Below, piece after piece: positions 7,567-43,316 of a DNA stretch of 58,454 nt (the stretch's first letter is position 1; each line of letters starts with the position of its first letter). Source of the DNA: Acidobacteria bacterium 13_1_20CM_3_53_8 (GTDB lineage Bacteria > Acidobacteriota > Blastocatellia > Pyrinomonadales > Pyrinomonadaceae); contig MNJR01000039.1 in the NCBI GenBank assembly GCA_001920415.1, positions 1-58,454 on the forward strand. Direction: 5' to 3'. A model generated the notes under the pieces. That model did no database searches, was not told the DNA's origin, and saw nothing but the letters and a program-made list of their open reading frames with translations. The translations under genes were made by a program, and so were the position numbers.

Positions 7567-7667
7567 ACAGTTTTCAGTTTTCAGTTTTTAGTTTTCAGTT
7601 CGTGGTTTTCAGCTAAGAGCATTTCTCTTCTTTCTGAAAACTGAAAACTAAAAACTGAAAACTGTTC
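7567..7667. repeat. Intergenic inverted repeat, GTTTTCAG family
   Basis: The left arm is tandem CAGTTTTCAGTTTTTAGTTTTCAG; the right arm is its complement. The loop contains AAGAGCATTTCTCTTC. The element occupies the whole gap between the KSIII-like stop and the acyl-CoA ligase ATG on the minus strand. Copies recur at 34724 and 49085. Confidence 0.9.
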
Positions 7668-8659: not shown

Positions 8660-8762
8660 TTAAAAGTCTGGAGTCTGGAGTCTAGAGTCTGGAGTCCGAG
8701 GTCAAAGACAGCTTTTAGTTTTTGCCTTTGACTCCAGACTCCAGACTCCAGACTCCAGACTG
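8660..8762. repeat. Inverted repeat, GTCTGGAGTC family
   Basis: The left arm has three to four copies of GTCTGGAGTC; the right arm has matching ACTCCAGACT copies. The loop contains CAGCTTTTAG. It touches the KSIII-like start on one side and overlaps the last codons and stop of the alpha/beta hydrolase (8715) on the other. Confidence 0.9.
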
Positions 8763-22398: not shown

Positions 22399-22907
22399 AT
22401 GAATAGTAGCGGCGACGACCTTAACAGATGTAGCAGCGTGTTCGCCCGAAAATAATCGCTAACTTTATACCAATCACGAGTCGAAGCGCGATAGTTTTGA
22501 GTAAGGAACAACCTCGGCATACTAACGAGATTATCTCAAACCATCTTTGCGTACTTTGCGTCTCCAGCGTGAAAAACCATTTCACGCCAAGACGCAAAGA
22601 CGCGAAGCGAGAACGCAAAGAAGTTTTTGAGAGACGTTCTTTTATTCATCGCTTACTTCAATATGACTGAACGATTAATTCAATTCATCTCAAAGTGACT
22701 TTCATCCTCCTGAAAGCGGAAAGACCCACGATAACCTAAACTCCTGTCATCGTAAGACTTCTGAAACTCCTTCCCTTCCGGCATAGACGTTGCCATAACC
22801 GAATGCGGAATGCTGTCTCTAACTTGTCAGGCATTCCCTGTACGGCGAGACGATTTCGTGTTCCGGTCTATTACTTGAACGAGATTGTTTCGATCTTAGC
22901 GACGTTT
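22399..22907. other. Intergenic region with a TTTGCGT/ACGCAAAG inverted repeat
   Basis: Divergent promoter region between the BNR protein and the S8 protease. A hairpin at about 22548-22622 pairs TTTGCGTACTTTGCGTCTCCAGCGTGAAA with TTTCACGCCAAGACGCAAAGACGC, a relative of the TTTGCGCC family. No gene or recognisable riboswitch was seen in the rest. Confidence 0.6.
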
Positions 22908-25900
22908 ATGAGAACAAGACTCAGGATCAACAGAATTCTTACAACGCTTCTCTTAAGTGCGCTTGCAATCGCGCAGGCGACAAGCGGTCTGGTTGTTCAG
23001 GCAAGCTCGAAATCAGATCACATGGACTCGAACCATAGGGAAGCGACATCCGGCGCGTCGAAAGTTCCGCCTGATCTGCGCGAGACTATAGACAATGCTC
23101 GCGCGAGGAATTTTTCCGAAACCGTCATAGTGCAGTTTAAGACAGATGCTTCACTGAACGCGTGCGAGTTAATCGCGCAGCATGGCGGAAGAATCAAGCA
23201 TAGCTTCACGAGCATAAAAGCTATGCTGGTCGAGATTCCGCTTTCCAGGATAGACGAGCTTGCCAGAGAGGATGATGTCGTTTACATCACGCCTGACAGA
23301 AAGTTGCGCGGCGCTATGGCCGCAACGAGCAAGCTTGTAGGCGCAGACCTTCTCAGACAGCAGGCTGCGAGCAAAAGTTATACGGGCACGACTTATCCTG
23401 CGGTTGACGGCAGCGGCGTTGGCATAGCTTTTCTTGACTCCGGCGCGAGTGCCGGAAACCGTGACTTCAACAACGCTTCGCAGACCGCATCCAGAATTGT
23501 CGCGGCCAGAGATTTTACCGCAAGCAATGCACCGGGAACGGACAGCGCGGACAGGTACGGACACGGCACGACTGTAACGGGCGTGGCCGCAGGAAACGGC
23601 TGGGGTTCAAGGCAATCAGACACGAACAACGTGAAGTGGTATGCGAGCAATTACGGCGATTACACCGGCATTGCCCCGAACGCGAACATCATCTCCATCA
23701 AGGTTATAGAAAGCGACGGCACTGGCAGCATAAGCAACGTCATACTTGGAATTGATTACGCTATCTCTGTCAAAGCTGCCTACAACATACGCGTGATGAA
23801 CATAAGTTTGGGCGCGCCAGTCCTTCAGAGTTACAAGACTGATCCGCTTTGTCAGGCTGTCGAGCGCGCCATTGCAAGCGGAATCGTTGTAGTCTGCTCC
23901 GCAGGTAATTTCGGACACTCCGATGTGGTCACAGGCTACGACACAAACGGGAAGCCTATTTATCAGACAGTCTATGGCGGCATCGCAAGCCCCGGCAATG
24001 ATCCTTACGTGATAACTGTAGGCGCTACGAAGAATCCAGCGCAATCAATCGAAACGTGGAACGGCCCCTGGAACAAACGACCGCCCGTCAACACTTCTCC
24101 CAATCCAAACGCTCTGCGCCGCACAGATTTGCAAGTGGCTTCATATAGCTCTCGCGGGCCTACGCTCGTTGACGGATTGATGAAGCCAGACCTTGTTGCG
24201 CCCGGCACGAAAGTCATAGCGGCGGCTACAAGGAATATCGCAGTCTTAACCGATGACGTTATACCGAACACTGTCATGCCGCTCTCTTCTACGGATAGCA
24301 ACGCCATCCCGAAGATGTACTGCCAGTTGAGCGGCACTTCGTTCGCCGCGCCCGTAGTGACAGGCACGGTCGCTCTCATGCTGCAAGCGAACCAGAACCT
24401 TACGCCCAGAGAAGTCAAAGCAATCTTGCGAATCACCGCGCAGCAACTCCCTTCTCTTTCGTCGCAGGATGAAGCTATCAAGCTGCTGACTGAAGGCGCA
24501 GGCTTACTGAACACTTACGCAGCCGTTCGCATCGCGCAAAACATCAGAGCGGACGCGAACACGGCGACCTCCGGCCAATCGCTTCTTAAAAACGGCGTCA
24601 CGTTGAGCGGACTCAGTCAAGACTTAGGATTTGATTTGAGAGACCGCGCGGGCGCTACGCTTGAGAGAGCGGTTTTAAATAGCGGGATTGTAGCGACCGA
24701 CGGAATAATCATGACCGACGGAATAATCATGACGGATGGAATCATCATGACCGACGGCATCATTATGACGGACGGAATAATTATGACCGATGGCATTATC
24801 ATGACAGACAATAGCGTCTGGCCGAGCGGCATAATCATGACCGACAGCTACGGTCGCAGCAGTTGCCTCGTTGCTTCCGGCGCGAAGCGGCTCGCATCGC
24901 AGAGCGGCGTAGCAGGAGGCATACACATTAGCGGCGCAAGATTCTACGCCGACGGCATCACGGCGACTTCGGGAAAGATGGACGGAAGGCTTATCTTCTC
25001 GCCCGTAGCGTCTGGCGTCTGGAAGAACTCAGTTCTTGATCCCAACTCGCTGCCCTCAAACGCCTCCACCGAAAGCTACGAGCTTTTGCAGAGCAACGAC
25101 GACGTGGCAATTGGCGGCATCACTTTTGTAAATAGCGCAAGCCCTTACTTCCCTGTAGCAACGCTCAGACAGTCTCCTCCTGTTTCCATCAATTTCAGCA
25201 ACAGCAGCTATTTCATCAATGAAGGCGCGGGCAGCGTGATCGTCACCGTCACACGCTCGAACACGAGCGGCGAGACGTATGTGGATTACTCAACCTCAGA
25301 CGGGACTGCCATGCAGAAGTCCGATTACGAGATGGCAAAGGGAACGCTACATTTCGCTGCGGGCGAAGCGAGCAAGTCTTTCAACGTTCTAATCACGGAC
25401 GACAATTACGTTGAAGGCAATGAGATGATAGCGCTCACGCTCACGAATCCTGTGGGCGGCAATCTGGCATCGCCTACGAGCGCAGTGATAACGATTATTG
25501 ACAACGACTCGCAGCAGCCCACTACGAACCCGGTTGAGAACGCGCAAACATTCGTGCGCCAGCACTACCTTGATTTTCTGAACCGCGAGCCTGACGCTGG
25601 CGGCCTTGCTTACTGGAGCGGAAGGCTCTCGCAGTGCGGTGTGAATCAGCAGTGCATACGTGATGCGCGGTTGAGCATCTCTGCGGCCTTCTTCATAGAG
25701 ATGGAGTTTCAGGATACGGGCTATTACGTCTATCGCCTGACCCGCGCTTCGTACAACCGGCGTCCTGATTTCACGGAGTTCATGGCCGACCGCAGCCGTT
25801 TGCACGCAAGCGTGACGCTCGAAGATGAGAAGCAAATTCTCGCGGACGATTTCGTTCATCGCGCGCCATTTCTGGTTGAATACCCGCTTTCGATGACGAA

Positions 25901-26255
25901 CGCGCAGTTCGTCAATCGCCTTTTTGACCAGGCAGGCTTAACGCCGTTCACAGCCGAGCGCCAGCAACTCATCGCCGACATGAATATAGGCAAGAGCAGG
26001 TCTCGCGCGTTGAGAGATGTAATCGAAATTCAGGAATTCAAGACGCGTGAATACAACGCGGCATTCGTCACCATGCAATATTTCGGCTACCTGCGCCGCA
26101 ACCCTGACGAGGGCGGCTACGATTTCTGGCTGAACGTCTTGAACAACCGTGTGCCCAACAACTATCTGGCGATGGTATGCGCTTTCATTACATCCAGTGA
26201 GTACCAGCAGCGCTTTAGTCCTGTGGTCACGCGCGCCAACAGCGAGTGCCGCTAA
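22908..26255 (+). CDS. Secreted S8 (subtilisin-like) protease with hexapeptide repeat, Calx-beta and DUF4214 domains
   Basis: An about 1115-residue exported protease. Numbering from the ATG at 22908, a signal peptide comes first (RILTTLLLSALAIAQATSG), then an inhibitor I9-like prodomain (ETVIVQFKTDASLNACE to DDVVYITPDRKL). The subtilase domain has Asp177 (IAFLDSG), His219 (GHGTTVTG), the oxyanion Asn in CSAGNFG and Ser478 (SGTSFAAP). Next is a run of TDGIIM repeats (about 597-632), then a Calx-beta domain (INEGAGSVIVTVTRS, DGTAMQKSDY, ITIIDNDS). Two DUF4214-type repeats end the protein (FVRQHYLDFLNREPDAGGL and QYFGYLRRNPDEGGYDFW). No good ribosome-binding site precedes either candidate start (22803 or 22908); 22908 is chosen because the signal peptide follows it. 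Confidence 0.88.
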   Translation: MRTRLRINRILTTLLLSALAIAQATSGLVVQASSKSDHMDSNHREATSGASKVPPDLRETIDNARARNFSETVIVQFKTDASLNACELIAQHGGRIKHSFTSIKAMLVEIPLSRIDELAREDDVVYITPDRKLRGAMAATSKLVGADLLRQQAASKSYTGTTYPAVDGSGVGIAFLDSGASAGNRDFNNASQTASRIVAARDFTASNAPGTDSADRYGHGTTVTGVAAGNGWGSRQSDTNNVKWYASNYGDYTGIAPNANIISIKVIESDGTGSISNVILGIDYAISVKAAYNIRVMNISLGAPVLQSYKTDPLCQAVERAIASGIVVVCSAGNFGHSDVVTGYDTNGKPIYQTVYGGIASPGNDPYVITVGATKNPAQSIETWNGPWNKRPPVNTSPNPNALRRTDLQVASYSSRGPTLVDGLMKPDLVAPGTKVIAAATRNIAVLTDDVIPNTVMPLSSTDSNAIPKMYCQLSGTSFAAPVVTGTVALMLQANQNLTPREVKAILRITAQQLPSLSSQDEAIKLLTEGAGLLNTYAAVRIAQNIRADANTATSGQSLLKNGVTLSGLSQDLGFDLRDRAGATLERAVLNSGIVATDGIIMTDGIIMTDGIIMTDGIIMTDGIIMTDGIIMTDNSVWPSGIIMTDSYGRSSCLVASGAKRLASQSGVAGGIHISGARFYADGITATSGKMDGRLIFSPVASGVWKNSVLDPNSLPSNASTESYELLQSNDDVAIGGITFVNSASPYFPVATLRQSPPVSINFSNSSYFINEGAGSVIVTVTRSNTSGETYVDYSTSDGTAMQKSDYEMAKGTLHFAAGEASKSFNVLITDDNYVEGNEMIALTLTNPVGGNLASPTSAVITIIDNDSQQPTTNPVENAQTFVRQHYLDFLNREPDAGGLAYWSGRLSQCGVNQQCIRDARLSISAAFFIEMEFQDTGYYVYRLTRASYNRRPDFTEFMADRSRLHASVTLEDEKQILADDFVHRAPFLVEYPLSMTNAQFVNRLFDQAGLTPFTAERQQLIADMNIGKSRSRALRDVIEIQEFKTREYNAAFVTMQYFGYLRRNPDEGGYDFWLNVLNNRVPNNYLAMVCAFITSSEYQQRFSPVVTRANSECR
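24696..24803 (+). repeat. Six tandem 18-bp units coding TDGIIM
   Basis: Six consecutive units translate to exactly the same hexapeptide, T-D-G-I-I-M, while their third codon positions differ (Thr ACC/ACG, Asp GAC/GAT, Gly GGA/GGC, Ile ATA/ATC/ATT). A broken seventh copy (SGIIMTD) follows at about 24826-24843. The protein sequence is therefore kept while the DNA drifts. Confidence 0.95.
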
Positions 26256-29071: not shown

Positions 29072-29188
29072 AAGGCAAAAGTAAAAAGGTAAAAGGCAAA
29101 AGTGAGGCTGAGAGCATTTTAAATTTTTAATTGAAATGCTTTTCGCCTTATCCTTTTTGCCCTTTGCCTTTTTACTTTTGCCTTTAAG
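29072..29188. repeat. Intergenic inverted repeat, AAAGGTAAAAGGC family
   Basis: AAGGCAAAAGTAAAAAGG on the left pairs with CCTTTTTACTTTTGCC-type sequence on the right. The centre has GAGAGCATTTTAAATTTTTAATTGAAATGCTTTTCG, itself a hairpin (AGCATTTT/AATGCTTT). It starts three bases after the GGDEF-EAL stop. Nothing further is seen up to the next start at 29321 except GGAAGGAAG. Confidence 0.88.
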
Positions 29189-43184: not shown

Positions 43185-43316
43185 AAGTCTGGAGTCAGAC
43201 TGATTTTCGATTTTGGATTTTAGATTTTCGATTTTAGATTGGAAGAAGCGGAGTGCTTTTAAATCGCAAATCGCAAATCCAAAATCGAAAATCAGTCTGA
43301 CTCCAGACTTATTTCA
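43185..43316. repeat. Compound inverted repeat (GTCTGGAGTC outer, TTTTGGATTTTAG inner)
   Basis: The outer AAGTCTGGAGTCAGACTGATTTTCG (43185-43210) pairs with the end at 43298-43312 (AGTCTGACTCCAGACTT). The inner GATTTTGGATTTTAGATTTT pairs with CGCAAATCCAAAATCGAAAATC. The centre has GGAGTGCTTTTAAATC. Two word families are thus joined in one hairpin, between cdaA and cdaR. Confidence 0.88.

Follow-up and report, generated by a model that had tools for sequence, protein, structure and literature searches.

Why should an enzyme carry a run of perfectly repeated hexapeptides whose codons vary from copy to copy? The question is raised by a subtilase gene in the window (the whole stretch of DNA that was analysed, 58,454 nucleotides), in which six TDGIIM units follow one another in tandem from position 24696, at 18 bp per unit, and end at 24803. 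The gene and its parts are as follows.

22803..26255, + strand: open reading frame of 1150 aa (S8 subtilase, hexad array, Calx-beta, DUF4214)
23409..24449, + strand: Peptidase_S8 domain, aa 203-549 (Pfam PF00082, 153 bits)
24684..24845, + strand: hexad array GIVATD-(GIIMTD)x6-NSVWPS-GIIMTD, aa 628-681
24696..24803, + strand: six TDGIIM units, identical as peptide and differing by synonymous codons
24846..25178, + strand: post-array segment, aa 682-792 (blastp similarity to sister C-terminal segments)
25179..25508, + strand: Calx-beta domain, aa 793-902 (Pfam PF03160, 84.3 bits)
25509..26252, + strand: C-terminal module with DUF4214, aa 903-1150 (Pfam PF13946)

Each of the three Pfam domains scores above its cut-off (Peptidase_S8 against 21.8 bits; Calx-beta against 27; DUF4214 at 62.3 bits against 23.2, with its best stretch at aa 1077-1138). 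These matches bear out the proposal of an earlier note on this DNA that the array sits between the protease and Calx-beta domains: it lies between the S8 domain and the Calx-beta/DUF4214 tail, with about 110 aa from the array to Calx-beta. The catalytic residues D212 (DSGAS), H254 (GHGT) and S513 (GTSFAAP) all stand in canonical motif contexts and are invariant in alignment A1. Fervidolysin_NPro-like and Inhibitor_I9 matches, both below the Pfam cut-off, are candidates for a prodomain, which this subtilase probably has, as in the S8 family. The start codon is likely the ATG at about 22908 (M36), and the stretch after it resembles a signal peptide when judged by eye; an N-terminus read in this way suggests that the enzyme is exported. 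Beyond the array, aa 683-800 were compared by blastp with 89 family sequences and weakly resemble the C-terminal segments of L045-L047, L026 and L027, which are sister hexad proteases (best E 1.7e-4, L046); the post-array segment, aa 682-792, is probably a solenoid cap. At the far end, residue 1141 or beyond is reached by 45 of the 88 non-self matches of the protein in its own genome. By this count the DUF4214 module (about 245 aa) recurs at dozens of other sites in that genome, mostly at 44-61% identity, and such a recurrent C-terminal module may possibly serve in sorting or anchoring. The protein falls below the equivalog cut-off for the anti-phage protease IetS (NCBIfam NF042956, 26.7 bits against 900), its NF042956 and PADLOC matches are confined to the S8 part, and the Plasmid collection gave no match.

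The array is longer than had been noted. The six units and a later copy stand as described, but a degenerate GIVATD unit precedes them, and the extra SGIIMTD copy lies beyond an NSVWPS break (GIIMTD codons from 24828), giving eight hexads and one break in all. Its TRF scores (149 at period 18, 168 at period 54) are the highest within the window. Elsewhere in the window, many arrays of 7-bp tandem units are set in apparent inverted pairs (AAGGCAA and CTTTTGC, for example) that may form long hairpins: 419-450 with 494-550, 7568-7600 with 7634-7664, 8665-8696 with 8730-8761, 29072-29102 with 29139-29185, and 43202-43240 with 43261-43293. Across the 15 pairs of TDGIIM units every difference is a synonymous change at a third codon position, which confirms six identical peptides with drifting codons; one correction to the earlier note is that units 1 and 2 are the same DNA (18/18), so that the six units have five DNA spellings. 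Unit pairs differ at a mean of 2.87 codons, against 2.99 expected under free codon choice at the gene's own usage. When codons were permuted among equal residues, neither the longest identical run (p=0.156) nor the identity of neighbours (p=0.515) stood out, and the copies are therefore as mixed as chance would make them. Values of 0.06 for pN and 0.84 for pS over the seven contiguous hexads support the claim that selection, of the purifying kind, acts on the peptide.

The window protein is one of many of its kind. Its S8-plus-array part was matched at E ≤ 1e-60 in 25 of 40 genomes, its own included, and in a scan of named genomes 80 loci were retained out of at least 424 confirmed. Among the matches listed, the scanned loci belong to Pyrinomonadaceae, other Blastocatellia, Bryobacterales, Terriglobia, Acidobacteriaceae and a few Abditibacteriales or Armatimonadetes bins; in these same matches the tails of Pyrinomonadaceae and other Blastocatellia are mostly G-x-x-x-[SGAT]-D arrays and those of the remaining groups mostly [SAN]-V-V-W-G-[DTSN] types. 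By its best named matches, the window genome itself is most likely a Pyrinomonadaceae. A stretch of at least four hexads is present at 58 loci among the 89 proteins examined. Seven paralogues in the protein's own genome have hexad tails of equal period, with the words GILITD, GDGILMS, GVVIGD, GIIIGD, GVLLGD and GVLVSD, and elsewhere in the family words such as GIMLSD, GVLIGD, GYILGS and AVVWGN occur, one per protease. Across the family we counted 160 different words, with the successive position preferences G/N/S, I/V/A, L/V/M/I, L/W/M/I/V, G/S/A/T and D/S/T/N, the outer limits of which are fixed by the regular expression that defined a hexad in the search. No dedicated Pfam or NCBIfam family was found for the hexad C-terminal region in the proteins scanned. 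Among the papers listed in literature searches on hexapeptide repeats of S8 or subtilisin-type proteases, and on the hexad words, none described such tails, nor are they described in the literature found on DUF4214 with Calx-beta, the Pyrinomonas protease, solenoid repeats or codon scrambling.

Across 119 genomes of the family, no complete orthologue of the protein turned up. The closest candidate, in genome G024, is a 141-aa open reading frame with linker and array and without the S8 domain (L130 1483-1908, minus strand); it has a signal-like start and a short GILMSD array, and it stands next to the GGDEF-EAL gene that is orthologous to the window's, in a relative orientation opposite to that in the window. 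Separately, a long N-terminal extension occurs in some of the hexad S8 proteins in the 850-915 aa size class; in L013 (1529-4273) and L115 (3374-5920) it resembles AAA/ClpA ATPase domains (Pfam AAA at 19.3 bits, below the cut-off; NCBIfam ClpA at 1.6e-8). Six other proteins of this size class (L030, L031, L036, L076, L088 and L102) gave no Pfam AAA match at E ≤ 0.01.

The arrays of these relatives allow residues and codons to be followed apart. In most of the 26 arrays with at least five consecutive identical hexapeptides, codon variation is near the free-choice prediction, and a few, for example L037, are clearly younger. Recent identical DNA copies, which the earlier note would have taken as a sign of slippage, occur in a part of the family: long identical runs are in excess (p ≤ 0.01) in five of 55 arrays, neighbour identity is in excess in five, and 15 of 255 adjacent peptide-identical units are also identical in DNA, against 7.8 expected. 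Copy number in orthologues, the comparison that the note had proposed, can be read from L049 and L050, in which 504 of 540 aligned pre-array residues are identical and 149 of 495 comparable codons differ. Their arrays hold 27 and 35 hexads, with the interruptions conserved and in equal order, and unit number therefore changes by whole units. Given this difference, the identical DNA of units 1 and 2 in the window and the five arrays with excess runs, unit turnover is a trait of the family. The assertion that the repeat is not a recent DNA expansion thus holds for synonymous sites, which are near saturation, but has to be qualified for units 1 and 2 and for the family's turnover of units.

Within an array the residues are alike, with a mean identity of 0.73 over the family. 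Among proteases with 70-80% identical cores a different uniform word is often present, and residue identity is 0.74 within arrays against 0.57 between them; for codons at shared residues the two values are 0.51 and 0.43. This class comprises 12 pairs drawn from 14 proteins; the pairs are not independent. Residues are more alike within than between in 10 of these 12 pairs, in 65 of 68 pairs with 60-70% identical cores and in 365 of 372 with 50-60% (again non-independent pairs), and in just one of two pairs at 80-90% and none of one at 90-100%. The clearest case is that of L046 (GITIAS) and L047 (GYILGS), in which residue identity is 0.90 within and 0.29 between arrays and codon identity 0.41 within and 0.45 between. 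Matching is not absolute, because some arrays (L022, L024, L053) mix two or three words. Recent copying does not suffice to explain the likeness within arrays, because most of the DNA identity has been lost, and neither does a requirement for fixed residues, because sisters use other words.

The reading that fits best, which we put forward tentatively, is a need for each unit to match its neighbours. Selection would act on matching and not on any given residue, allowing many words but one word per array, with whole-array switches of word between relatives; the DNA identity of copies would be lost to synonymous drift, or avoided as identical copies recombine. The main rival, which we regard as somewhat unlikely, is older, ordinary turnover, in which a word is re-seeded by unit duplication and then held by plain purifying selection, so that uniformity would date from the last expansion and no matching would be needed. 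Such turnover is consistent with the whole-unit gain and loss between L049 and L050, with the excess of identical runs and of DNA-identical neighbours, and with the slightly higher codon identity within arrays than between them. Against it, the codons of most arrays, the window's too, are mixed like a random permutation, so the residues have stayed matched long after DNA identity was lost; sister arrays also tolerate other residues, and yet the residues stayed matched within each array.

A need for neighbours to match would probably come from units that stack. The tails were compared with known repeat folds. The Pfam Hexapep cut-off (27 bits) is passed by six of 20 full-length sisters (L013, L014, L115, L076, L088 and L102), while the window's array segment gave no Pfam match and stays below that cut-off. 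The tandem hexapeptide pattern [LIV]-[GAED]-x2-[STAV]-x, as quoted in the excerpted text of PMC12081914, fits 0 of 6 hexads in the window array and 68 of 567 in the family, with a fit of at least 80% in six of 50 arrays. A profile built from nine tails and searched against the PDB returned 45 rows at E ≤ 1, of which 44 are left-handed beta-helix proteins by their names (best 8.8e-6); the window array alone retrieved three chains at E ≤ 10, all of them left-handed beta-helix by name and none significant. The match was lost with a scrambled-word control, and a reversed tail outscored the real one against left-handed beta-helix chains (3e-9 against 1e-4). Because the reversed tail scored better, the sequence likeness to these proteins was rejected as proof of homology or descent; it is a likeness of pattern. 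We consider that the window array probably works like a left-handed beta-helix segment, without filing it as a member of that family.

Structure prediction gave low confidence throughout. AlphaFold2 models of the window's S8-plus-array part have a mean pLDDT of 49.3, with about 30 in the array, and strands about every six residues. For the L050 tail the mean is 48.8; the best model reaches 50-61 in most of the array and, at this low confidence, has over part of its length a strand period of 18 residues, equal to three hexads, and the other four of the five models average near 30. A Foldseek search with the low-confidence tail model found nothing at E ≤ 0.001; its best rows, beta-helix proteins of other kinds with TM of 0.15-0.2, were taken as uninformative. 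The beta-solenoid suggested by the earlier note is the most plausible fold by pattern, but it is not demonstrated by these predictions. Low pLDDT in both predictions would also suit a flexible, unstructured or adhesive low-complexity linker with no defined fold. We think this quite improbable, since neither the residue conservation of the window stretch (pS and pN as above) nor a hydrophobic hexad pattern kept over 160 words would be expected of a free linker, and AlphaFold had very shallow alignments to work from (16 sequences for the window's S8-plus-array part, nine for the L050 tail).

The order of units within arrays bears on the kind of stack. No three-hexad period was found in word order (z about 0 at lag 3), and a two-hexad period is present by residues (z about 3 at lag 2). 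A two-rung or cross-beta stack with a 12-residue repeat, or another beta-solenoid that is not left-handed, possibly with strands pairing between molecules into a fibre, would agree with this weak lag-2 periodicity in word order and codons, with three consecutive hydrophobic residues, which would turn one side chain outward, and with L023 and some others that stop exactly at the repeat and lack a cap. We hold it to be unlikely, as the codon signal at lag 2 is carried by few arrays (z falls from 3.2 to 1.1 without the five strongest) and several sisters score above the Hexapep cut-off. A tendency of adjacent units to avoid identical codons was considered and set aside, as its z of -2.2 to -2.4 shrinks to -0.3 without five arrays. 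In the L115 array (aa 779-843) the codons have a period of two hexads (36 bp) and not of one, as would be expected from copying of units in pairs.

Our proposed explanation, to which we give roughly even chances, is that the array forms a beta-solenoid of the left-handed hexapeptide type in an exported subtilase, with residues matched by stacking, and acts as a spacer between the enzyme and a surface module. Each hexad would supply one short strand (I-I-M) and one turn (T-D-G), and parallel stacking of hexads would build a prism in which like residue lies on like residue of the neighbouring rung. Stacking of this kind would account for a word that is free between proteins and uniform within an array while the codons drift. 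As judged from sequence, the most likely role of the tail is that of a rigid spacer or cap between the catalytic domain and the Calx-beta/DUF4214 module, which would probably hold the enzyme at the surface.

The C-terminal region of many Acidobacteriota subtilases now has a description. If the matching rule is true, the family is a natural experiment on beta-solenoid stacking, carried out in dozens of related enzymes each with its own largely uniform word; designers of beta-helices would gain a table of words accepted by nature, and evolutionary study a case of constraint that is relative to neighbours and not absolute.

Several known systems can be set beside it. The window protein resembles subtilase family S8 (PF00082) in its domain, catalytic residues and probable prodomain, and differs by its C-terminal hexad array, Calx-beta and DUF4214. 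With the Hexapep or left-handed beta-helix proteins (PF00132; LpxA, LpxD, QdtC, gamma-carbonic anhydrase) the hexad tails share a period of six, with three hydrophobic residues and a D/G turn per unit, as well as the sister tails above the Pfam cut-off and PDB profile matches that are nearly all left-handed beta-helix. The window array differs from them in its departure from the pattern and score below the cut-off, in units that are uniform within the protein, and in sitting on a protease, Pfam having matched no transferase domain in the window protein. SaBeH, a self-assembling beta-helix peptide derived from galactoside acetyltransferase, has, according to the excerpted text of PMC12081914, hexapeptide rungs of three strands and ladders of like residues, as would be expected here; SaBeH was designed, whereas the hexad array is a natural tail. 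A study of 'horizontal' repeat evolution also set repeats within proteins against their orthologues and, as far as the excerpt of PMC5120217 goes, found a faster divergence among the units of a protein than between orthologous units; in the hexad family, differences are greater between related arrays than among the units that one array contains.
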